A DNA stretch of 64,000 nt from Lasiodiplodia sp. COLG20 (lineage: Eukaryota > Ascomycota > Dothideomycetes > Botryosphaeriales > Botryosphaeriaceae), in assembly GCA_009801085.1 (NCBI GenBank), contig VNWV01000003.1, positions 3,224,001 through 3,288,000 on the forward strand, read 5' to 3'. Numbering within the stretch: the stretch's first letter is position 1; each line of letters opens with the position of its first letter. Shown here piece after piece: positions 49,269 to 62,440 of the stretch. A program made the translations under genes and the position numbers. The notes beneath the pieces are model-generated. The model saw nothing but the letters and a program-made list of their open reading frames with translations. It was not told the origin of the DNA and did no database searches.

Positions 49269-50437
49269 TTAGGATCGAATTGGTTTTCGGATGCATAGGT
49301 TTGTTACTACTCACAGCTTTACGCTTAATATTTCTTTTTCTTTTCAGGACTTCTGGAGTCATTGTGGTCACACCACGGTTGATTTACGAGAGCTCGCCTA
49401 CTTTGCTTTGGCAGATACTTGCGCACAGCAAGGTCTGACTTACGGGCCTTTTGGTTTTGACCACGTCTTACTGCCGATATTCTTCAAGTGCCGTATTTTT
49501 CAGTATATTTTTGAATTCGGTGTTGACCCTTCGCAATACTTCTAATGTCATAGTTTACTATCCAGCATAAATAGAATGAATACTCTTTCCGTGATCTCTC
49601 GTATTTGCTCCTTGAACTACTCTGCTTTATTGACGCTAATGCTGTGTTCATCTAGCCGAGGGAATGACAGCTTGCCCTGCAGCAGATCCATGCAACTATC
49701 CTAGACTATTTAGGAAGCAGCGAAATGACCACCTTCCACTTTTGCATTCTAGTGACGTAGTTGGAAAACCCGCCCGTCCGGAGGGCTTCAAGGGCCTGCT
49801 GCAAGACTGTATCCCAACAGCTAAACAGAAGTCCGAAACATACAGAAAGAAAGGAAAAATGGGGCAGTATGAAGCTGGCTAAGGGGTAAACGACGAAGTC
49901 AAACAGCACATATGGAAAAGGGAGGGAGCGCTCGACGTGTACTGGACCTGTCACAGGGATGAGGGATTTCAGCTGCGTCTCCTTGTATTTTAGCCGTCTG
50001 CATACATTCATGATTACCAAGAGTAGGACCTGTTCCGCCACGAGATATTAAGGAATGTGTAGATCTAGTTAATCTTACAGTATGCATCTTTCCCTTGCTT
50101 TGTGGACGTGGCTGCCGCTGACTGCTTGGCACCGAGCGGAAAATACTCCGTTTCAGCGTGAATGGTGGATTTTGATACACCAAAGGCTTAAATGTGGTCA
50201 TCCTTGCATTTCAGGCAAGAAGAGGGGTTGTGTTGCTGGATTACATGGGTTGTTGGGACAGTCAACGAACTCAAAGTCTGCAACCAAATACGACAGACAG
50301 CTGGATATTGGAAGAACTGAGCAAATGCTCTTTTAAGAATATTAGACAGGGGGGTATCGCAGCCGAAGGCTAGCGTGAAGGATAGTACGGCCCTAGGCGT
50401 AGCTATGCCTCAGCTCGTTCTTAGAAAATGACATATG

Positions 50438-50520
50438 TGGGTAGCTGAAGCTATCGTCGGGACGAAAATGTGGAATTAAAAATTCTACATACACGTCCGG
50501 ACGATAGCTTCAACTACCCA
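50438..50520. repeat. 83-bp palindromic element, copy A
   Basis: Begins TGGGTAGCTGAAGC and ends GCTTCAACTACCCA; the arms match at 25 of the first 27 positions and fold into a hairpin with an A/T-rich centre. It is bordered by TGACATATG on the left and TGACATGGG on the right, agreeing at 7 of 9 positions, which may be a target-site duplication. It carries no coding capacity. Four copies in this window are all 83 bp. Confidence 0.8.
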
Positions 50521-52623
50521 TGACATGGGCAAAAAACAAATTCACGCTAGCCACCAGCTGCGAGAAAGTATTCGCTACTGCGAGGGCGCGTTTGCCACGG
50601 CATGACGTGGAGTGGCTGCGGTGCTGCTCTATAGGCGCAATGCACATACCAGCTTACCAGCAGGAGCCGCAGCCCTCTGAAGGGCGCAGTATCACGGCGG
50701 GTCGTCAACGCTACGGTAATTCAATTTTCGATCTGGATCCGTTTGTCGCGACTATTGTTAAAGTGAAGTTCTACATCCACATTTACTCTTCCATACATTA
50801 ACAGGCCTTTTCCCAGTGGTATCCGTGCCTTCAATGAGATCCTATTTCCTCAGAAACCAGCATTTAGCATGCTCCAATGCGAATTGCAAGATAAATGGGC
50901 TGGGCACTAGCAGCCAGGCTTGGTTAAGATGGATTTGTAAGCACCAATGACAACCATGCGACAACAACCAAAGGAATGAAGGTGGACTGATGTGGACAGC
51001 GATCCTGCCCCCGCGTGGTGGCGAGGGTTCCGGCGTCTGTGTCGACTAGCCGTTTCGGCTTCCGGTTCCGTTCGTCAGGCCGAGGTTGTCATGGTGCAAC
51101 GATGTCAATTGTACAGCCGAGAGGGGGCTTGGTGGAGTCTTGCATATGCATTCGAAATAAAGTCAATGGTAACACAGCAAAGGCCGGATGTACTTCCTTT
51201 CTCGTGAAATGTGTGGAGCGGTGTGCGGATAATTCGCATGTGGCTTTTCTTGAATATGCGATGCTGTCACATAGAAGGATTTGAAAAAAGAGATCGGGTA
51301 ATGATTTGTTTCGCAGCATAAGAAATGTGAAAAGGCATCGGATGCGGGCCAGATACCCATGTAGCCACCTACCATGTTCGACGAAAAGCCGTGATTATCG
51401 CGAGCCTCGAAAAAACACCACGTCGGAAAAGGCGACGAAAGCGAAACCGAATTACTAGATAAACTATAATCATGTAGGAATGCGACGGGAAATACCTACT
51501 TGCTGAGTCTTGCTAGGGGGAACGGAAAACGGCACAGATACCACGAGCGGTATGCAGAAATTCCCGGTCTGAGCAGCCCTACGACGATCAATGCATGACC
51601 TCGGATGAGGGTTGCATTGCCCTGATTGGAGCTGGCCCAGCATCTGCTGGATCTGTGTGAGCTGTGAAGGTCGCTTATGTTGTTGTACTATTTCCGTCGG
51701 AGACTAGAAATCTGCAAGGAGCGCGGCCAATAGAGACGAAGAGTCAAACGTCGACGTGATGAGCGGGGTGCCCCGATACCCCGGTCGAGCGCATCATCCG
51801 ATATGCAAAGCAGAGGCGTCCAATGGGTCGGCTACACATGTGTGGAAAAATCTCGACAGGAGCCGGACGCCCATCCGCCGTCGGAGCTGCTCCGAGACAC
51901 GTCCAGTCGCATGGCCAGCGGTGGGACGATGAAAGTTAAACTTGCACCTTTTCCTGTGGAATCTGTTCGTGGGCCTTGTGCTCCGTCTTTGGAATTTGTG
52001 CCGTCGCGGGCCTGAAGGCTGTGCAGGCATAAGTCCGTGGCTAAATCCGCCAAAAGTCGCGGCCGTGGCGTGCTCCTTTACTCATCGTTTTGGAATCATC
52101 AGGCGTCAACAGCAATGGTGGGAGATAAGGGTGATCTTATACTTGTGCTGATGCGAGTTGGGAGGCGAGCTGCCCCGTTAAGCCAGACTCCAGCAAAAGT
52201 CTCCGGGGCATTGGAGAGTCACGGGATCGGGGAGGGACGGGACGCGTGTAAGGCGGCTGGATCGGGCCGAAGGCGCGCGGCTTGGGGATGCATATATTGC
52301 CAGCCCGCCAAGCCGGCTTGGTGGTGTTTCAAAACGAGAGGCTCCCCAATTTGCGGCGGGAACTTCCAACGTCATTGCAAGGCGCGGCGAGACCCAGCCG
52401 CCGTGCGCGTCGATCAGTTGTGGGCGGCCCTGAGCAGAATAGACAGACTTGGGGTGAAACGAGAAGGTGGTGGCGCAGATCGGTTGCGCAGCCCCCTGAC
52501 CACACGAACGCACAGAAGACCGTCTGGTCAACGCTACCATTGCCTTGAGACAGCGTGGGCCACCAGTGAGACACGTATTTTGGCCCCGTTATGAGCTCAA
52601 GGCGCCGGGCTAACACGAGGCCC

Positions 52624-52630
52624 TATATAA
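52624..52630 (+). promoter_or_regulatory. TATA box of the secreted repeat protein gene
   Basis: A perfect TATATAA lies 120 bp before the ATG at 52744. The sequence in between is CT-rich (leader type). This is the clearest TATA promoter in the window and agrees with the strong codon bias of the gene. Confidence 0.7.
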
Positions 52631-52743
52631 GGCCCAACTCCTACCTCTCCCCGTGCTACAACACCCTTCTTTTCTACCCCGCATTATTCCTGTTTCAAAC
52701 CGACATTCCTTACAGCAGATCTACGCTCTTTCAGTCAGCCAAC

Positions 52744-53145
52744 ATGCGTATTTCTTCCGCCACCGCCCTTGCGGCCCTCGTCCTTGCCGCCAACGCCGCC
52801 CCGGCCGAGCTGCCCACCCACAAGACCTCCAAGGCTGGCGTCGTCGAGCTCACCGGCAGCCGCGTCCAGGAGCGCTCTCCCTTCGACTGGTCGGATATCT
52901 CAAAGCCCTTTGAAAAGGTTGGCTCGTTTCTCACCGGCAAAACGGACGAGAGCTCCAACGAGAAGCGCTCTCCCATCGACTGGGACGACGTGAAACGTCC
53001 TTTTGAATCTGTTGGCGATGCAATCACCGGCAACACCGAGAAGAACGAGAAGAGAGAGGCCGCTCCCTGGGGCTGGGAAGAATTCAAGGCTCCTTTCGTT
53101 AAAGTGGGGGATGCTATCACTGGCAACAACAAGGACGACAACTAA
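52744..53145 (+). CDS. Small secreted protein with three repeats at Kex2-type sites
   Basis: An intronless protein of 133 residues without cysteine. Residues 1-19 form a signal peptide (ALAALVLAANA). After a short pro-region, three diverged repeats of about 29-31 residues follow, each preceded by a dibasic or basic site: VQER before residue 45, NEKR before 76 and NEKR before 105. The shared pattern is a short hydrophobic/Pro start, DW or GW, an acidic pair, then KPFxxVG and TGN/TGK. The third repeat starts EAAPWGW, and KR followed by EA is the context trimmed by Ste13-type peptidases in alpha-factor precursors. Codons end strongly in C or G, and a TATA box lies upstream, so expression is probably high. 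The layout fits Kex2-processed repeat proteins (KEPs); a secreted effector-like protein that is not processed is the alternative. No tailoring enzyme genes are nearby. Confidence 0.85.
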   Translation: MRISSATALAALVLAANAAPAELPTHKTSKAGVVELTGSRVQERSPFDWSDISKPFEKVGSFLTGKTDESSNEKRSPIDWDDVKRPFESVGDAITGNTEKNEKREAAPWGWEEFKAPFVKVGDAITGNNKDDN

Positions 53146-55215
53146 ATGTCGACGGCGGAGTGGAAACCACGCGAGCACGGGCAATTGAATGAAAACCGTG
53201 CAGGCTGATACCGGAAACGAGAACGCATCTTACTGGAACCGATTCTACTGTTGATATTTTTCCTTTTTCTTTGTCAATTTTTTCTTTCAGTCTCCAGTCA
53301 ACCGAGACGTCATTTGCTGCGTAAAGAACCAAGACAATCGAGTACAGGCAGAAGGAAATTCAATTCTTACTCTCCATTTTTCGGATGCCAGGAACAAGTG
53401 CGAGGTCAGGACGCGGTCAAATTGCCAGATTCGTCAGTTCGTCGGCGTGCATGCAGCTGACCCTTGACGGTGATCCGCAACCGGTGTGAATTTGGCTCGG
53501 ACGGGGGCCGGGAGCACGGAAGGTCGATTCCACTATTGTGGAGTCGGAGATCCCTATCAGGCGTGAAGGTGCACGGCGACAGTAGATATGTACGTGGACC
53601 GGCAAGGCTGAACCCCCCGTCAGCCCTTTCTTATTGTAACCGTCGATCACTGGCGCTAACGTCCCCCTCGTGCGGAGGCGCTGAGCCGTGTGTGTAAGCC
53701 GGCGTGTGCATGTCATGTTGGTAGTATAGCCTCCGTCCCGCTGCAAGACCAAAACGCATGGCAACGGCTTAGCGGCGAAGTATACTGGATCGGCTGCGGC
53801 TGCGCTTGCGGCTCGACCACCAGCCACTGCCGCCGGCTGCCTACAAGTGCTTTCTTTTTTTTCCCTTGCAATAGGACGCCGTGCATTGACCCTGGCCAAC
53901 CACCTACGCCGGACTGGTCCGGCCAGCCCCCCTGTGAGCGGCTCACATCCTTTGCTCCCCACTCCATCCTGGAGCCGACCCGCACTGAATTTCCTGTTTC
54001 GCGGTCCGGTGGACGGCTTGACGGCTGGTCGGCCGGGCGGCTGGGATTGCTGCAGCGAAACCACAGCTCCCAATACGCCCGCTCCGACGGCCTTCCGGAG
54101 GTCGACGTCCAAGTGGCGAAATGCTAACTAGTGATAATGCGCTGATCTGCTCCAGATTGTCGGGTTTAAGGGTGGATCTATGGGAAGTCAAGTGCCGGTC
54201 CGTATCCTTGCAAGCCGGACGGTGGCTTGCTTTGCCCGCGGGCCGGCAGTTGCAAACAATGCGCAAGAGAGGCCCTTTCCGGTTACTGCATCCAAAAGTG
54301 CCGCAAAATCTGCTGGCTGCGTCTGGGGGGAAAGGAGCACGATATGTATGCTTAGATGCTTGGCGCTATGCGCCCCCTTCTGCCTTGATCTGCTTACACG
54401 CCGCCCTGTCGCTGTTGGTGGAGGCACTTTGAGCTTGGCCCCGCTCTGCCCCGTTCTTCCTCCTGTGCTGCCTTGTCCTAGACGCTCACGCGGCCACGGA
54501 CCACCCGTCAGCGGGTCCAGGCGCCTCTGCCGTCGATCGAGCTCCGGATCCTTGAAGTATGATAGCTGACGGCGGCCGAGTATATGGTCGCTTACGGCCA
54601 CATGCCAGCCTCCGGGCCAATGACGCGGTATCAACCCACCCGGTCGTCGTTCGTCGTTCGTAACTCCGACTGCGAGCAGCTGCTTCGGGCACAGTGCCCC
54701 AAGGGCAGCGCCACCCGGGGCATGAGACTGCCATGGCTAGGCCCGAGATTGCCGTCGGAATTTGACGGTTGATCCGGGATACTCAGAGTGGAGCTCCGCC
54801 ATCTGAGTGCTGCCTGATCTCTGATTGCTCGGCGTGGGGATGCACACAGGGCCCTGGATACGACGGGAGAGCTTCCGGTGCGCCTGAGGGATTCCAGAGC
54901 ACGCTGCGGGTGCGCCATCGTACCGAACCTTGTTCGAGCCTTCTAGTTTCATAACAGCAAGGATCAGCATGGGCTGCCCTCCGCGGCCGTGGACTGACGG
55001 GAGGCAGAAACTTTTCACACGTCTTCGCTGGCTGATGACTTGTCGCCACTCCCCGCACCTCGCCTGGTCAGTGCAGCTGTTCGGCCGCATCTGGGGCGCT
55101 GCCGGTATTTCAGTACCGCTTTCTCTTCGCTGCCTACCCGGACTCGCTGCTCCGGCTCGCCATCTTCGCAACCGACGCTGTGCATGATCTCCGGCCAGGC
55201 CCCTGACTAGCAACA
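53146..55215. other. 2.1-kb intergenic region
   Basis: GC-rich, with overlapping frames on both strands (for example 53417-54112 minus) that have no recognisable products and irregular composition. I regard them as chance. No repeats were noticed. Confidence 0.5.
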
Positions 55216-55943
55216 ATGATGCGGCTCGCGGTGAGCAGATCCAAGGCCGACTTCCTCCAGAGCCTGGGCCTATCCAACGACAATCCGGCAGATCGACAGG
55301 TGTACATCGCCATCAAGGTGAGAGCCGGGAGTCGGAGGGCCCACCCATGTGCTGCGTACTGACGAACCCCCCACCCAGCGCGAGGCCATGGAGGGTCGCG
55401 CCCGGCTGTGCCAAAACCGCGACAATCTCATGCCCCAATGCCGGGACGACGTGACGGTGCAGCCGCCCTTTTCGTCCAGCCAGATGATGGAGACGGCCAT
55501 GCACCGCGAGGTCCTCCGCATCTACAGCCTGGCCAGTCCGACCACGCGGCCCTACTACCAGCTCGGCCGCTTCATGGATGGCGAGAACGTCGACAACTGG
55601 GTCATCCGCTGGATGCTTTGGAACACGTTCCGGTACGGCATGAACAGGAAACGCCATCCAGGTAACTGCCCTCCTCATCCTCCTCCTCCTCCGCCGCCGC
55701 CTTCTCCCGCAACACCACCACCACCCGCCCGGCTCTTTGAACGCTGACCACGCAGACTCGGACGATTTGCTGAATTCTCCGGAAGGGTCCCCTACTCTTA
55801 ACACCGTATCGCCTGTCGTGTCACAAGCGCCAGCTGGCACCGACGGACGGACAGGTACGTCTCCGGCTTTTGGATTCCTCGAAACAATGCGTCCTCTACG
55901 CCCGTCATTTTACGGTGCGGCGTTCATAAGTACTGAAAAATGA
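55216..55943 (+). CDS. Unknown small protein, three exons
   Basis: Exons 55216-55317, 55379-55661 and 55756-55943 give about 190 residues. The introns (61 and 94 nt) have good donors (GTGAGA, GTAACT) and CAG acceptors. The first two exons look like a real, compact domain: KADFLQSLGLSNDNPADRQV, a helix with KREAMEGRARLCQNRD, LMPQCRDDVT, MMETAMHREVLRIYSLAS, YYQLGRFMDGENVDNWVIRW and MLWNTFRYGMNRKRHP. Two Cys and many aromatic residues are present. There is no signal peptide or membrane segment. The third exon is Ser/Pro-rich and may contain a further intron, since a GTACGT occurs at 55855. I do not recognise the family and assign no function. Confidence 0.65.
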
Positions 55944-56913
55944 TGTAGTTCCTTACGATCCTGTGAGGGATGCATGATTGGCACGGCTTTGCTTTCGTTT
56001 GGCGCAGTTTTTTTTTTTTTTTTTTTCTTCTGGGACCGTGGAATAGAAACATGGAGGCGGGACCCTTCTTTTTTGAACGTCTTTTTTTCCGAGGCCGTGG
56101 CTATTGTCTTTTTGGCATCGTTTGCGCGAGCTGGGAGGATAGATTGCAATATCGATCGAACTTTCTTGGCAGTTGCTACTAGCAGTTCTGCGCTTAACAC
56201 GAGGAGCAGTTCGAGTGGACGGTCGAAGTGATGATGCGGATCAATTAAGATCCGCTTGGGGGAAGCGCGGAGCAAGCTCCGCATCATGCGCTCTGTGGAC
56301 GGTGCGGTCAGCCTAATGCATGAAGTCCAACAACCACCTGCAACCAGAGAAAGAGTGTTTGCCGGAAGGGTTGTTTACGATAGCTATGGTAGCAATCTGT
56401 TCGAAAGAAGATGGTATTCTTGACGTAGACCGCACTATAGAAATTAGATCCTGCCAGTACAATAAACGTGGACCACTTCTGCTCTTATAGTGTGGGCTGT
56501 CGGGAACATATCTCGTTCATCCTAACCGAAGAGGGCGGATTCCCGTGAACACTTCAACAACGTCAGCCCAGAATGACTTTTGGCAGCCCATTCAGGCTGT
56601 ATCGAGGCCCTAAGGCCTTTTATGGAGAAATTTTGCTGGTCATAGTTCCACTAAATAAAGGTTAAAAGCACTTTGGATCCGTGCACAGCCCTGACTGAAT
56701 AGCTCACTTAATACGCGTTTCTGCACAACCTCCACTTCTGTGTCGGCTTTGCCTCCGATTGGCGCGTATCGGTACACCCTATCGACTACGGCTTACGTCA
56801 AGCAATCCGTCCATGACGTGGGAAATTCTAAAGGCGACCAGGCGCAGAAGGGTAGCGCAGCCGAAAGCTAGTTTGGATTTATTTTCGTATCAGGCGTTTG
56901 TTCGAGCTCACCA

Positions 56914-56996
56914 TGGGTAGCCGAAGCAATTGCTTGGACGGAAATGTGGAATGAATAATTATACATCAACGTCCAGATGATAGTCTCTACTTCCCA
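56914..56996. repeat. 83-bp palindromic element, copy B
   Basis: Starts TGGGTAGCCGAAGC and ends TCTACTTCCCA. It aligns without gaps to copy A over 83 bp at roughly 78% identity. Several differences are C/T or G/A, and the hairpin is weaker than in copies A and C. Confidence 0.75.
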
Positions 56997-57582
56997 TAAG
57001 TTGGATACCATTGCTCGCAAAGACTGCAGAGGATTATTTCTTCTGCGTGCCCACAGTTACTGCCTGTTCCGACGTTCTGCATTATTCTTCGCGCTAACCT
57101 TCGGCTCTAATAGCCATCTGTAGCAGCTAGAGAATACGAGGACGGAGGTCACTGTAGGCGACGTTCGGCAAGAGATCGATGCAGGGAAAAATATGGGGAG
57201 CAGCCGATTGGTTGGATTATACTTCCCCGAATCAGGTCGAGTTTATGAAGGGTGCGTCATTTACACTGCTTCTACACTTTGCTCGTCCCTGAAAAATCAT
57301 TAGACCATCCCATCAGCTATTACATAGTATGCGTATTTCCTCATGACCGGGCGGTCTGACGATATGACCCGGCCCATTCCATGTACCACAACATGAACTT
57401 AGCGAGCGTATCGGAGATTTCTTTCGTTGACGCGAGTTTTATTTGAGACAGGTGGCCGTCAGACTTGTACATGTAGATGGATGTCCGCCGGAGGCTAGAG
57501 TGAGGATTAGCAGGGTGCTGGAACAACAGAGGGTAATTATGCTCCGTATCACGGGAGGCGAAGAATAATCCTGCAATCTTCC

Positions 57583-57665
57583 GTAGGCACTGAAGCGATC
57601 ATCCGGACGTAAATGCTGAGTTAATAACTTTACATTTACGTCCGGACAGTTGCTTCAACTACCCA
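57583..57665. repeat. 83-bp palindromic element, copy C
   Basis: Starts GTAGGCACTGAAGC and ends GCTTCAACTACCCA. The inner arms TCCGGACGTAAATG and CATTTACGTCCGGA are perfect complements. It is 586 bp downstream of copy B, in the same orientation by its right end. Confidence 0.78.
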
Positions 57666-58003
57666 TCATGAGCTTGAACTTGCCGGCTACACCTATGCTT
57701 GAATCTAGACAGATGGAAGGAAGCCAGTTCATTCTGTTTGCTGGCGTCAATTAATGATACATGCTATTGGAGCTTTTTGCCCATGATCCTGCAACGCCAC
57801 TGCTGCTCGTGCTCATACCATTGATCCCACCATCCCTCTTTTGCGCGAGTAATCTGAAATGGATGAAGTTTGAAAAAAGGAAAGTAAAACAAAGGTAAGG
57901 AAAGTTGGGAAGCCAATCTCAGCCGAAGTGCCGAGATGTTATGATTATCATGCCGTGTTGGTTAATTGAGACACATCACTGAGCGTCAGAGATTCGTATC
58001 TCC

Positions 58004-59514
58004 CTAGCGGTTGACGGCGGTAAAGCCAAGGCCTCCAGGTTGGCCTTGCCCATCCTCAGAGGACTGGGCCTCACCCATCTCAGTGTCCTGCGTGTCCGGC
58101 TGCGCAGTCCTCCTCTCGCCATTTGCGTCCGACCTGATTTCAGGTCCAGCACTGAGCATCTCGCCCGTGGCACCCGGAGCAGGAGCTGCCGCAAAGGGAC
58201 GACCGTAATCGCCGCTGGCGGCAGATGTGCTGTTCTCTGCGCTGACCGGTCTTTCTCTATCATCATGCCTGCCTTCGCCAAACTCTGGTTGCGGTAGAGG
58301 CAAGGTGGGTGCAGTACCGCCGGCAGCGGAAACCCCAGGCAGCGGAGCCGACCCGCTGTATGGAGTGGATGACGGAGTTCCATTGAGACCTGTGGGTACG
58401 GATGTGTTGCCATAAGGGACCGCGGAACCCGGACGAACTGGATCAGGAGTGGATTGGGCTGACGACATAGCGCGCAAGGGGTGAATGTGTGGCTGCTGGG
58501 TAGTGTTGCTGACCGATCCAGGGGAGTGGTGAGGCGGCATGCTGCCGCTTTGGTGGCCTTCGAGGGGAGGTGTCTTTTGACGGTTGGTGCGCTTACTCCG
58601 TGTCGGCTTCTCTTGCGGCTGCGATACGTCAGGCTTCAGAGAGCTTCCAAGTGGAGGAGATGGGTCTTGGCGTACAGTTGGAGGAGGGCTAGTGCTGCGG
58701 TCCGAGTCGTCCACGTTGGGGGCCATTCTCTCGGCAAGGCGCTCCAACAAGAAAGCTCTTTCCAGCCGCATCTTCAAGATGGCGCGGTCGAGGCGCACTT
58801 TGCGCAGCCGTGCAGCCTCGTTGTTTGCCTCAATCTCATTTAGACGGCGCTTGAGGGCAATGCACTTGCGGTAATAGGCCGCCTCGACCGAGGGAGGCAG
58901 TGGTGTAGCATTATCTGCTTCCTTTGGTCAGTATACTAGTGGACTCCAATGATAGTGCCATCAAGGGAAGTGAGTAGAAATGAAGATGCGATCCCACGTC
59001 GTAACGCAACTGGATTCTTTTGACGTTCCATGGCATCAATCCGTGGCAGTGGCTGTTTCCGAGGCTCTACAGTCATGGCGGGTGGGCGGGCGATGCGTAG
59101 GGAACTTATGACCGGTGTTGATATGTGATGCGCTCTCAGCAGATCAACCACGCCGGGGTGTTCAATCCTCGCGCGCTTCTCCCAATATTCTTCCTGGTCG
59201 CCCTCGCCACCCCATACTCCTCGGCGCACAGGTATCCATTGTCGCGCTGGGAGTTCGCCCGACCAGGCCTTTATTGTCTTTTGCGCCGAGGTCTCGATGG
59301 GCGTGAACAGGGCTGGAGGTCGCTCGACCTGGCGCTCGGGCTGGGGCACAAGAGCGGCCGCCAAGGAGGGGATAGTCGGTCGGATCCAAGGATTGGGCGC
59401 GCGGATAAGTCCAGTTGCGGCAGACGGGGGTGAGATCGACAGTGGGAATGCAAAGGCATTGAGGTGGTGGTGATGAGGGCAAGAGAAGGGCTAATACAGA
59501 CCTGCAGGCGGCAT
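58004..59514 (-). CDS. Coiled-coil protein resembling INO80 subunit F/TFPT
   Basis: Two exons are proposed: a 13-nt first exon (59514-59502, coding MPPA plus one base) and 58917-58004, joined across a 584-nt intron; 308 residues. Splicing gives MPPAADNATPLPPSVEAAYY in frame. The recognisable part is a basic coiled coil at residues 17-70 (YYRKCIALKRRLNEIEANN, then RLRKVRLDRAILKMRLERAFLLERL). That pattern is like the small helical TFPT/INO80F-type subunits of the INO80 chromatin remodeller. The remaining 235 residues are Ser/Pro/Gly-rich and disordered, with a TRSKRTNRQK basic patch. Nuclear function is likely; INO80 membership is an inference from the coil alone. A frame inside the intron (58936-59364) could instead be exonic, but no splice choice tied it in. 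Confidence 0.6.
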
Positions 59515-59927
59515 TTTGGGCTGCTGCGATGCGCGAGGAAGCAGAGGAGGGTTGAAGAAGATGGTGCGACTGCGTCAAGGGTTGGAGGATGGACAGACAG
59601 CGAGGCGCGCGGAGGTGAGGTTGGTTGAGGAGCTTCGAAGGAGCTCCGGAGTCGTGGCGCGCAAGGCTCCGGCTGACTTTGGGTGGTCCGAGCGCCTGGG
59701 GTTGCGGCGCCCGCGCTACGACGCGTCCGCCTCTCACGCGTCACCTAACCTCATCTATCCTCTCATCAACGTCTCACCCATTGGTTCAGGCCTGTCGTTG
59801 CTCTGTTGACTCTTGGTCTCGACGGTCTCGCCAATGGTGCTACTGGACTCATTCGCGCAGCAGCAGACCCAATTTTTTTTTCTACTGCGAGTATTGATGG
59901 CATTAACTATAGTGAGGTAGATCCTCT
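59515..59927. promoter_or_regulatory. Divergent promoter region
   Basis: These 413 bp separate the start codons of the coiled-coil protein gene (minus) and the HET-domain gene (plus). A run of nine T occurs at 59873-59881. No other element is evident. Confidence 0.5.
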
Positions 59928-62300
59928 ATGAACTTACCAGACTCGGAAGCTATGGCGCAAAGGAGTCAAAATGCTGCAAACGCGCAGTCCCAACAAAGAG
60001 TCCAGTCTCAGGCTCTGCGTATGGAATTGCAGCATCTCCGACTAGCACAGATGCCACAACAACAACAGGCCAAGTCTCAGGCTCTGTATGCGGAAATGCA
60101 ATATCTCCAACGGCCCCAGCAGCAGCAACAACAACAGGCCAAGTCTCAAGCTTTGTATGCGGAAATGCAGCATCTCCAACGGCCCCAGCACCAGCACCTA
60201 CAAATGGCCAAGTCTCAAGCTCTGTACGGGGAAATGCAGCATCTCCAACTGCCCCGGGCGCAACCACAAGCACAGCAGGCCAAGTCTCAAGTTCTTCGTC
60301 AAGAGATGAGTCATCCCCTATTGGGACAACAGTTCATGAAGTCGCAACCAATGAGGGAATCTATGCGGCAATATCCTCCATCAGCGTCAAGCACACCGGG
60401 CGCCGATACCTGGACGAGCGAGCAAGAGCATGTTGAAGAAACCACTTTTGGGCGTTATGACTTTCCACCATCAACTTCCACGCTATTTTCATCCGCCATT
60501 TGGGGTGTCGGTTGTGAGGATTACGAATACGACATTTTGAAAGGACCTCGAGAAATCCGAATTTTGTGTATCAACCCTGGCCTACCACCCGATGAACTTG
60601 ATTGCGACTTGTATCACTGCGAGCTCGATGCAAAACTTGCGTATTCTGCTTTGTCCTACGCCTGGGGGACGGACAAAACCCCAACTGTGACAATTTTTTG
60701 TAACGGGCGCCGCCTGAGAATCATGCCCAGCTTGTACAGCGCCCTTCAGAGGATTCGCCACCACGCCCATCCCATCTACATCTGGGCCGATGCCGTCTGT
60801 ATAAATCAACGAAATGAAATCGAAAAGGGCCATCAGGTTCGTTTAATGAGAGCCATATACCAAAAGGCAAGATCAGTCTTGATATGGCTGGGCCCCGACG
60901 AGCATAATCAAGCTCTAGCAGTATTCGACACCAGCAGAAAGATTTTTGAAGAAGACATGAGCCATGTTCCACACTCAAGCGACAACCTATGGTCGGGATT
61001 TGCTAACCTTTTTGATCGCTCTTGGTTCTGGAGGCTATGGTGCCTCCAAGAGATCGTGCTTGCGTCCTCTGCCGAACTGATGTGGGGACCTGAGATTATA
61101 AGCTGGGAGTGCCTTGGCTTCGCAGCAGCCTGGATTAGAACCATGGAGCATCAGATTGCGCGTGGAATTCCTGGCCTCTACAACGCCTACCTCATGTACG
61201 CTCTTTCTATCAGCAGTGATAAGCATGACCCAGTCTCGTTCCTGCATCTTCTCTCTCTCACCCGCCAGTTCAAGGTATCGGATGCGCGAGACCGAATTTA
61301 CGCCCTCCTTGGGCTGCCCACCACAGATTCCGACCCGGAGAACGGCGAGCTGTACGTGGACCCTGATTATACCAAGACGCTCCCAGAAGTCTACGAGGCC
61401 TTAGCGAGGAAAATGCTTCTTTCTTCTCAAGGCTTGCGGGCCCTCTCGACCGTGCAGCATGGTTTGGAAGTCGAAGAGACTCTGCCGTCTTGGGTCCCCC
61501 AATGGGATCGCCTCTTCACATACGCGCTGGCTCAGGGCGGAACTTCTCTCAAGAACTTTGCGGCCTCAGCTGCTCTCCCGATGGTCGTACCAAGGTTTTT
61601 CAGATCGCTGCTGGTTGTTGAAGGCCTGGAGTTTGACGCTGTAGCCTGGGTGTCGGATATACTACCTGACGCTGTCGATTCGCACCCTGAGCTCGAATAT
61701 CTCAATACAGTATGGGATACAGTAACTTCCTTCATGCATACCTATCCTGATGGGACCGACATCTATACGGCTTTTTGCTGGACCGTTACTGCCGGCAAAG
61801 ACTGGTATGGCATGCTCGTGGAGAATGAAGTGGAGCATCTTGCGGATTTCGCGGCGTGCCAGGAGGCTTACTTTGCCTCTCCTCTACCCGACACGGGAAT
61901 GCGTGGGCGGCTCACACTTTCTCACGTCCACGAGTCAAGGCGCCAGACGGTCATGAATCTGCCGCGGGAAGAGTTCTACCGTGAGATTGCAGCTTCAGCC
62001 CCCACGAATGGCAGATGCGATGCAGATGCGGACCGGTTCGTAACAGCTATGGCGTATGCTTGCCACTTTCGGCGCTTCTTTATAACCAGAAAGGGTTTCA
62101 TTGGCATTGGGCCGCCCTGCCTGAAAAGGGACGATTTGGTGTGCATCCTCAATGGCGGTATCATGCCGTTTCTGCTCAGACACAGAGAGGAACATTATAA
62201 GCTTGTCGGAGACGCATACATCTACGGGATTATGAATGGCGAAGCTTGTGAGCAGTCGTCTCGAGCAAATCTACGGACGCGTTCGTTCGCCTTAAGTTGA
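59928..62300 (+). CDS. HET-domain protein with Gln-rich N-terminal tandem repeats
   Basis: A single exon of 790 residues. HET domains are fungal TIR-like signalling modules that trigger incompatibility cell death after non-self recognition. The motifs are clear: LAYSALSYAWGT (about residue 235), YIWADAVCINQRNEIEKGHQ (about 283) with VLIWLGP, and WFWRLWCLQEIVLAS (about 365). The region after it (SDARDRIYALLGL, about 450) is also typical. Residues 25-140 form a Gln-rich array of about six 23-residue repeats, core KSQALYAEMQ, before the HET domain. No WD40, TPR or NACHT partner is present in the same frame; the remaining 340 residues match the usual HET-family C-terminal part. A second Met 24 bases in (59952) is an alternative start. 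A palindromic element begins 58 bp past the stop. Confidence 0.9.
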   Translation: MNLPDSEAMAQRSQNAANAQSQQRVQSQALRMELQHLRLAQMPQQQQAKSQALYAEMQYLQRPQQQQQQQAKSQALYAEMQHLQRPQHQHLQMAKSQALYGEMQHLQLPRAQPQAQQAKSQVLRQEMSHPLLGQQFMKSQPMRESMRQYPPSASSTPGADTWTSEQEHVEETTFGRYDFPPSTSTLFSSAIWGVGCEDYEYDILKGPREIRILCINPGLPPDELDCDLYHCELDAKLAYSALSYAWGTDKTPTVTIFCNGRRLRIMPSLYSALQRIRHHAHPIYIWADAVCINQRNEIEKGHQVRLMRAIYQKARSVLIWLGPDEHNQALAVFDTSRKIFEEDMSHVPHSSDNLWSGFANLFDRSWFWRLWCLQEIVLASSAELMWGPEIISWECLGFAAAWIRTMEHQIARGIPGLYNAYLMYALSISSDKHDPVSFLHLLSLTRQFKVSDARDRIYALLGLPTTDSDPENGELYVDPDYTKTLPEVYEALARKMLLSSQGLRALSTVQHGLEVEETLPSWVPQWDRLFTYALAQGGTSLKNFAASAALPMVVPRFFRSLLVVEGLEFDAVAWVSDILPDAVDSHPELEYLNTVWDTVTSFMHTYPDGTDIYTAFCWTVTAGKDWYGMLVENEVEHLADFAACQEAYFASPLPDTGMRGRLTLSHVHESRRQTVMNLPREEFYREIAASAPTNGRCDADADRFVTAMAYACHFRRFFITRKGFIGIGPPCLKRDDLVCILNGGIMPFLLRHREEHYKLVGDAYIYGIMNGEACEQSSRANLRTRSFALS
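60003..60350 (+). repeat. 69-bp tandem repeats in the HET gene
   Basis: The core AAGTCTCA-like word recurs at about 60003, 60072, 60141, 60210 and 60282 (spacings 69, 69, 69 and 72), with a weaker unit near 60340. Each unit codes 23 or 24 residues: KSQALYAEMQ, an LQ-rich link and a Gln run. The two middle units are nearly identical, which points to recent unequal exchange or slippage. Confidence 0.85.
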
Positions 62301-62357
62301 ACTCGATTGTTGCTACACAGCACAGCCAGTAACACCGCGATTAATACCATCATCACG

Positions 62358-62440
62358 GGGGGAGCTGAATCTAACGTCCGGATACATTTGTACAATTTTT
62401 AAATGGACATTCACGTCCGGACGTTCGCTTCAACTGCACA
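62358..62440. repeat. 83-bp palindromic element, copy D
   Basis: Aligns without gaps to the other copies from GGGGGAGCTGAATC to GCTTCAACTGCACA. Inner arms AACGTCCGGA and TCCGGACGTT are complementary. It starts 58 bp after the HET stop codon and probably lies in that gene's 3' untranslated region. Confidence 0.75.

Follow-up and report, generated by a model that had tools for sequence, protein, structure and literature searches.

An 83-bp hairpin core found in either orientation within a short TA-flanked inverted-repeat element of Lasiodiplodia sp. COLG20

The four 83-bp palindromes in the window (the whole 64-kb stretch of Lasiodiplodia sp. COLG20 DNA that was analysed) are the hairpin cores of a longer, non-coding element that is flanked by TA and carries terminal inverted repeats, and they are not free-standing. 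The borders of the 83 bp coincide with those of a segment that is found in either orientation, and in close relatives the core is reversed while the flanks are unchanged. We consider it likely that the element is a Tc1/mariner-type MITE with TA target sites and that its core inverts in place, probably via template switching. As far as a broad open-access literature search shows, with most subscription papers lying outside it, the kind of element is a known one, a Tc1/mariner-type MITE, and the flipping core is new; no description of the family or of a flipping MITE core appeared among the titles that this search listed.

The four cores and the element around them

The copies lie at window positions 50438-50520, 56914-56996, 57583-57665 and 62358-62440, where the initial annotation had placed them, and they align end to end without gaps over 83 columns as it had stated. 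Their divergence, described there as up to about a fifth of positions, was understated, as the pairs differ at 18, 21, 23, 28, 31 and 34 of the 83 positions. A search with a profile of 30 sequences gave E-values of 1.5e-25, 5.1e-13, 2.6e-17 and 9.5e-16 for copies 1, 2, 3 and 4, respectively; the seed included copy 1 (as the window copy and again as locus L001) and not copies 2 to 4, so only the last three values are independent. When the copies were folded as single-stranded DNA, copies 1, 3 and 4 folded better than all of 200 shuffles (z = -13.2, -7.5 and -4.2, respectively), with a hairpin of -32.5 kcal/mol in copy 1. In copy 2 the hairpin was largely lost (z = -1.0) and 29 of 200 shuffles folded equally well. 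None of the 15 open reading frames of at least 250 aa in the window covers a core.

Core copy 1 (50438-50520, minus strand) is in reverse relative to its own flanks, which are clear (polarity score -8). It sits in a decayed element of 231 bp at 50345-50575 (plus strand), which extends 93 and 55 bp beyond the core and has terminal-repeat scores of 26 and 17 of 31. The left terminal inverted repeat (GACAGGGGGGTATCGCAGCCGAAGGCTAGCG, 50345-50375, plus strand) has a first base other than T, and the right one (50545-50575, minus strand) is degraded in its outer half, as read from the sequence. Core copy 2 (56914-56996, plus strand), the one with most of its hairpin lost, has an ambiguous orientation to its flanks (flank difference 4) and lies in a probable element of 280 bp at 56843-57122, which reaches 126 and 71 bp beyond the core and has terminal-repeat scores of 21 and 19 of 31. 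The terminal repeats of core copy 3 (57583-57665) are unrecognisable except for a weak remnant near 57470-57499 (scores 10 and 8). Core copy 4 (62358-62440) is of an older-looking type (CTAACGTCC...GGACGTT), and its terminal repeats are likewise unrecognisable (scores 7 and 9, obtained for the copy as L030).

Two open reading frames of the same window were recorded. A HET-domain (heterokaryon incompatibility) protein of 790 aa is encoded at 59928-62300 (plus strand), and core copy 4 follows directly behind its stop codon, 57 bases from the end of the frame; one relative of this protein was found at 85%, and the best named ones are from Macrophomina (58%) and Botryosphaeria (57%). A small secreted-type open reading frame at 52744-53145 (plus strand), with a TATATAA box approximately 120 bp upstream, contains three similar repeats, RSPFDWSDISKPFEKVGSFLTGK, RSPIDWDDVKRPFESVGDAITGN and WGWEEFKAPFVKVGDAITGN, of which the second and third are preceded by KR. 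We take this frame to resemble a KEX2-processed repeat precursor.

In the genome (43.5 Mb, 88 contigs), a search for the core, as had been suggested earlier, used a pattern of both core arms in which a single letter of the right arm could vary, and gave 75 forward and 71 reverse matches, compared to 0 and 0 for the back-to-front control. A total of 167 distinct copies was obtained from 183 core places after removal of duplicates and of places cut by the end of a locus. The fixed length noted for the window copies is real, since 154 of these 167 copies are exactly 83 bp (since partial matches to the profile were lengthened to reach both ends of the model, small indels near an end could go unnoticed), as are 35 of 38 cores at loci selected by their terminal repeats. 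The copy number of the family is very roughly 1,000, calculated from 674 exact arm matches and 0.68 arm matches per core, a ratio measured on the 38 cores at terminal-repeat-chosen loci. Whole elements range from 162 to 377 bp, and 52 of the 63 measured are 214-255 bp long. The family is one of short, non-coding, scattered elements with a high copy number.

The flanks of 77 distinct copies share sequence on both sides of the core, with an A arm that ends in ...TTAGAAAAATAACATATG and a B arm that starts with TGACATGAGCAAAAAACAAAT. Both flanking arms end in a terminal inverted repeat of approximately 31 bp, TACAGTCCCCTCTCGCAGCCGATGGCTAGCG or its variant TACAGAGGGGTGCTGCAGCCGATGGCTAGCG, outside the core. 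The flanking arms are asymmetric, mostly 76-110 bp for A and approximately 55 bp for B, with the 83-bp core between them, and unlike the core their inner parts vary in length. At a strict score, which 1 of 400 random stretches reached, A and B flanks were found at 90 of 112 well-preserved cores; at a looser score the count rose to 107 of 112, but 121 of 400 random stretches also scored as high. Among the 167 cores, 63 had both terminal repeats, 42 had one and 62 had none at a score of at least 15 within 200 bp, which was reached by 1 of 400 random 200-bp stretches.

The terminal-repeat pattern, with at most one mismatch, matched the genome at 184 forward and 222 reverse places, and the pattern read backwards gave 0. 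The first 40 listed terminal-repeat loci outside those already sampled were used as test loci and were therefore not selected by the core. The core was held by 35 of the 40, although only in part by L091, L093 and L102. In the five others, the core had its centre deleted (L106) or was absent except for a few bases (L101), and in three cases (L088, L097 and L124) the terminal repeat was solitary, with no second end or core in the approximately 0.4 kb fetched. Of the full elements, 46 of 50 terminated in TA on either side, and the bases beyond it were near random; the 50 elements were chosen with a template starting with TA, and the sharp drop outside it is the stronger part of the evidence for the ends. 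We infer from this target-site check that TA is duplicated on insertion.

It might be argued that the 83-bp palindrome is an independent MITE that inserted often, also into another element family and in either orientation. The sharp limits of the 154 copies, the occurrence of both orientations and the 22 of 112 well-preserved cores that fall below the strict flank threshold, 5 of them also below the lenient one, are consistent with that explanation. In contrast, the commonest bases beside the core are alike in both orientations (ACATATG in 16 of 42 forward and 14 of 27 reverse copies, and TGACATG in 15 of 42 and 9 of 27, respectively), so that independent insertions would need one identical site, and the common flanks of 90 good cores and the recovery of the core at 35 of the 40 loci chosen through their outer repeats also argue against it. 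Independent insertion is therefore largely refuted and we regard it as very unlikely; given the outer terminal repeats and the common flanks, the 83 bp as a free-standing element is largely rejected. The proposal of a MITE family that depends on an enzyme elsewhere for its movement was right about the kind of element and not about its extent, the 83 bp being the core of a longer TA-flanked element with terminal inverted repeats. The initial annotation had itself named pieces of a larger known transposon as the finding that would speak against its reading, and pieces of a larger transposon are what the copies are, though no named transposon was found.

Several loci depart from the common layout. 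Five cores stand in a row at L047:1210-1955, the first four spaced 141-143 bp apart, and two cores separated by 53-59 bp occur in L070, L080, L107, L126 and L142, indicating that duplication of the core inside elements is recurrent. L040 and L057 resemble inverted duplications of one core. The cores at L041:1494 and L051:1501 are older-looking and have another common flank (TTGTCCGAATTAAYTCC), and are perhaps a sister subfamily with different arms.

Orientation of the core

The centre of the core is asymmetric within the near-palindrome, with nine positions that differ in the commonest form, and the direction of the core can therefore be scored. When the flanks of 51 full elements were set from A to B, the core was forward in 29, reverse in 18 and unclear in 4; copies that were not 83 bp, had unclear flanks or did not have the stated terminal repeats were excluded from these counts. 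The A arm was longer than the B arm in 49 of the 51, so that the call does not depend on the letters of the flanks alone, and a flank difference as large as that demanded occurred in 2 of 400 random stretches. Polarity scores, obtained for 93 copies, were bimodal, with peaks at +9 and at -9/-8, and 13 copies scored between -2 and +2. The forward and reverse groups have majority sequences that are exactly reverse-complementary, as is partly expected from the way the groups were defined.

Evidence for the reversal that is independent of this definition comes from two pairs of close relatives. L022 and L026, whose flank distance of 0.014 makes them the closest pair of the set of 51, have cores that are identical after flipping, with 17 of 17 asymmetric positions reversed and subfamily-typical variants included. 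L126 and L143 share a stretch of 55 bp that separates two cores, and between them the second core is flipped at 9 of 9 asymmetric positions; the first core of L143 is damaged. Both clean flips span at least positions 8 to 76 of the 83.

Two further comparisons concern related copies. In the duplicated pair L025 and L027, the younger core has the same orientation (82 of 83 positions direct), and the old cores were not decisive as a third flip, with 59 positions matching directly and 68 after flipping and the L027 core matching its own reverse complement at 68. No haplotigs or allelic pairs with differing orientation were seen among the sampled loci.

A flank tree was built from 51 elements with at least one terminal repeat and clearer polarity (29 forward and 22 reverse, a set different from the 51 full elements). 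It contained 14 orientation changes compared to a mean of 16.7 after shuffling, and 63 (F) and 54 (R) of 500 shuffles were as low. The well-supported branches force only 3 changes, and 35 of 48 inner branches are open. The nearest flank relatives agreed in orientation in 24 of 51 cases, against a permutation mean of 25.5. As far as can be judged from these weakly resolved flanks, orientation is nearly random relative to descent.

At flank distances below 0.1, the cores of opposite pairs differed by 0.059 after flipping (15 pairs) compared to 0.084 for equally oriented pairs (35). At flank distances of 0.10-0.20, the cores of opposite pairs were slightly more different (0.122 compared to 0.107, and 0.117 compared to 0.098). 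The correlation between core and flank distances was weak (0.26 and 0.18), and this would fit a history in which a few inversions were spread by gene conversion between dispersed elements, the arms being self-complementary so that a donor core could be copied in either direction. L079, which as read by eye joins the arms of two subfamilies and looks chimeric, is also in keeping with such exchange; through it a few old inversions could be scattered, and exchange between elements can contribute to the orientation pattern. Against gene conversion as the source, each flipped pair shows the relative's own core in exact reverse complement, down to the variants of its subfamily; copying from a donor of another subfamily would not produce this, whereas a donor from the same subfamily could. 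We consider spread by gene conversion rather unlikely, and it may accompany inversion in place; the likelihoods that we attach to the alternatives are not mutually exclusive.

With inversion in place as the preferred explanation, it could further be supposed that the core is an actively invertible cassette in approximately 1,000 dispersed nuclear copies, and that it turns over frequently enough, through a dedicated enzyme or during the element's own amplification, to bring orientation to equilibrium even between nearest relatives. This seems improbable to us. If it were true, one culture would be expected to contain single insertions in both orientations, and insertions could act as orientation switches near genes.

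Mirrored flanks, arm pairing and the transposase search

In L060, the flanks of the core mirror each other over 104 bp per side with 0 mismatches, and the outer 50 bp are DNA from outside the element. The resulting palindrome is 291 bp in total, and a surrounding stretch of 303 bp has a folding energy of -190 kcal/mol. The mirrored 50-bp flanks were ruled out as a second repeat family, because a 22-mer from them occurs at only those two places genome-wide with up to 3 mismatches allowed. At L047:1634 the mirrored flanks are 42 bp long with 2 mismatches. Long mirrored flanks of ordinary composition were found in only these 2 of the 167 copies, and they point to fold-back copying.

From the mirrored flanks, together with the precedents in yeast and chloroplasts discussed below, we infer inversion in place by template switching or recombination from arm to arm. 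The palindrome would become single-stranded or be extruded, and a polymerase would then switch between the 27-bp arms (or the arms would recombine) and copy the centre backwards, inverting it where it stands. Occasional fold-back copying that ran past the core would turn the flank into a longer palindrome, as in L060.

A recombinase or the element's own transposase might instead recognise the arms and flip the core, as in bacterial invertible elements. Such an enzyme would suit both the span of the clean cases, at least positions 8 to 76 of 83, and the fact that both orientations are common. However, at positions 8 and 12 of the arms the alleles tend to go with the side of the flank (p = 0.01 and 0.03, respectively, uncorrected for 34 positions), which suggests variable breakpoints, and the fold-back copying in L060 and L047 extends beyond any fixed site; we find an enzyme-driven flip highly doubtful. 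Arm position 24 follows the polarity of the core (p = 0.01, likewise uncorrected for 34 positions). Position 8 was flipped in both clean cases, contrary to its flank-side trend.

Homogenisation of the core arms, which template switching would be expected to cause, was weak and not clearly above that of the terminal repeats. In 50 full elements, the two arms differed at 2.92 of 27 positions within a copy compared to 3.06 between copies, and 136 of 2000 permutations were as low. The values were 1.58 and 1.79 for the outer 14 positions (7 of 2000 permutations as low) and 1.34 and 1.27, respectively, for the inner 13, which had no excess likeness. The terminal repeats of the same 50 elements had 6.96 differences within and 7.77 between copies (19 of 2000), an effect similar to that in the arms. 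For all 154 cores, in which subfamilies of different age are mixed, the values were 3.78 and 4.26 (0 of 2000).

These comparisons bear on the possibility that selection maintains the hairpin for a role as a small-RNA precursor or a regulatory structure. L006, a consensus-like copy, forms a very stable hairpin (-40.5 kcal/mol, z = -17). In 28 elements chosen by their terminal repeats, the core was nearly free of indels, with a gap fraction of 0.004 compared to 0.30 in inner arm A and 0.14 in inner arm B, and pairwise identity was 0.84 for the core, compared to 0.76 and 0.82 for the two inner arms and 0.84 and 0.90 for the terminal repeats. Among 150 distinct cores, 117 compensated arm changes were counted at positions 1-34, more than in any of 1000 shuffles (mean 83.5, maximum 107), a comparison that ignores relatedness. 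However, the covariation of the arms is little beyond that of the terminal repeats, in which indels are hardly present either (gap fraction 0.004-0.009, the repeats having been cut as fixed 31-bp pieces), window copy 2 persists without most of its pairing, and Rfam at the gathering score matched neither the window nor the four loci tested. Private double changes gave no support for pairing selection, with 1 seen compared to a shuffle mean of 0.2 and a maximum of 3. Selection on pairing was set aside, because the excess over shuffles ignores relatedness and the terminal-repeat control shows only a weak effect. The selection on structure proposed in the initial annotation is thus unsupported by the arm comparison; we see no need for it, hold it to be most unlikely, and assign no host function to the hairpin.

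Transposition would be by a Tc1/mariner-type transposase, which was not found in the assembly. Searches with Pfam-type profiles matched the genome at 8 loci, three for DDE_3 and five for DDE_1, and none of the 8 carries the terminal repeats of the family at the ends of the transposase itself. No autonomous partner was found among these 8 loci and the approximately 100 of 406 terminal repeats listed, so that a longer partner may have been missed among the 406. A search with PF01359 gave no match here and none in the control genomes either.

The transposase loci have features of their own. A broken DDE_3 (Tc1-like) remnant with 5 stops inside the match lies at L060:870-2040, its extent judged by eye, and adjoins the 291-bp palindrome; its possible left end, TACAGTACTAAGAC, is unlike the repeats of the family. 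The core-bearing copy in L060, approximately 150 bp beyond the apparent end of the remnant as judged by eye, makes this the only DDE locus that matches the family's ends, and its nearness to the remnant may be chance. Open DDE_1 (pogo/Fot-type) frames of 575 and 568 residues from stop to stop are present at L065:952-2676 and L063:901-2604 (minus strand), respectively, and the frame in L065 is accompanied by inverted repeats of its own near 799 and 2677. At L061:496-1803 an open frame of 436 residues matches DDE_3, with inverted repeats that start near 518 and 1953.

Comparison with known systems

The human mariner MITE MADE1 is about 80 bp long and nearly pure hairpin. In MADE1 the hairpin is the entire element, whereas in the family described here a longer element surrounds it. 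The letters of the terminal repeats look different from those of the mimps of Fusarium. The mimps are Tc1/mariner-type MITEs that the family resembles in being approximately 200 bp long and non-coding, with terminal inverted repeats of approximately 30 bp; in the part of the mimp literature used here, they are 200-220 bp, have repeats of approximately 27 bp resembling those of impala and are moved by impala in a heterologous system (PMC3599309). Unlike mimps, the elements described here have an 83-bp palindromic core and a partner transposase that was not found. Galileo of Drosophila is similar in that its inverted repeats are extended by inverted internal sequence and in that chimeric copies occur; it belongs to the P superfamily with repeats of hundreds of bases, and a flipping core is not among the features described in the portion of that report drawn on (PMC3573991).

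In chloroplasts, segments of 5-50 bp flip between stem-loop inverted repeats of 11-24 bp (cited second hand from passages of PMC12928735; also PMC3123225), and these hairpin-flanked small inversions are reported there as recurrent (PMC12928735, PMC3123225). They are found at single loci of an organelle, whereas the inversions described here are nuclear and within a mobile element. Homoplastic microinversion hotspots without stem-loops are described in birds, in the text consulted (PMC3123225), so a hairpin is not the sole route to such inversions. The L060 palindrome can be compared with yeast foldback inversions, in which hairpin-primed copying leads to an inverted duplication; those are, in the excerpt used, large chromosome rearrangements selected in mutants (PMC7467729), compared to 291 bp in L060.

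Small inversions mediated by hairpins are reported from single loci, namely yeast genes and chloroplasts. In the present family, hundreds of copies with individual flanks constitute a natural experiment on the rate of inversion, its breakpoints and its dependence on arm mismatches, and one genome with a few re-sequenced strains could yield those parameters. The findings also suggest that, in repeat libraries built by consensus alignment, such a family may be divided or its core taken for the element.

The proposed mechanism has a precedent in Saccharomyces cerevisiae, in which template switching between short inverted repeats is reported to lead to inversion of the spacer and homogenisation of the arms (PMC8604942, in the sections cited). 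There, as here, the arms are short, and the centre is turned in place, as we propose for the core; in yeast the process is described as recurrent and reversible, with arm homogenisation (PMC8604942). The ten events given in that part of the yeast report were in coding genes and changed 2-5 bp (PMC8604942), whereas here a dispersed family is involved and 9-17 asymmetric positions are turned.
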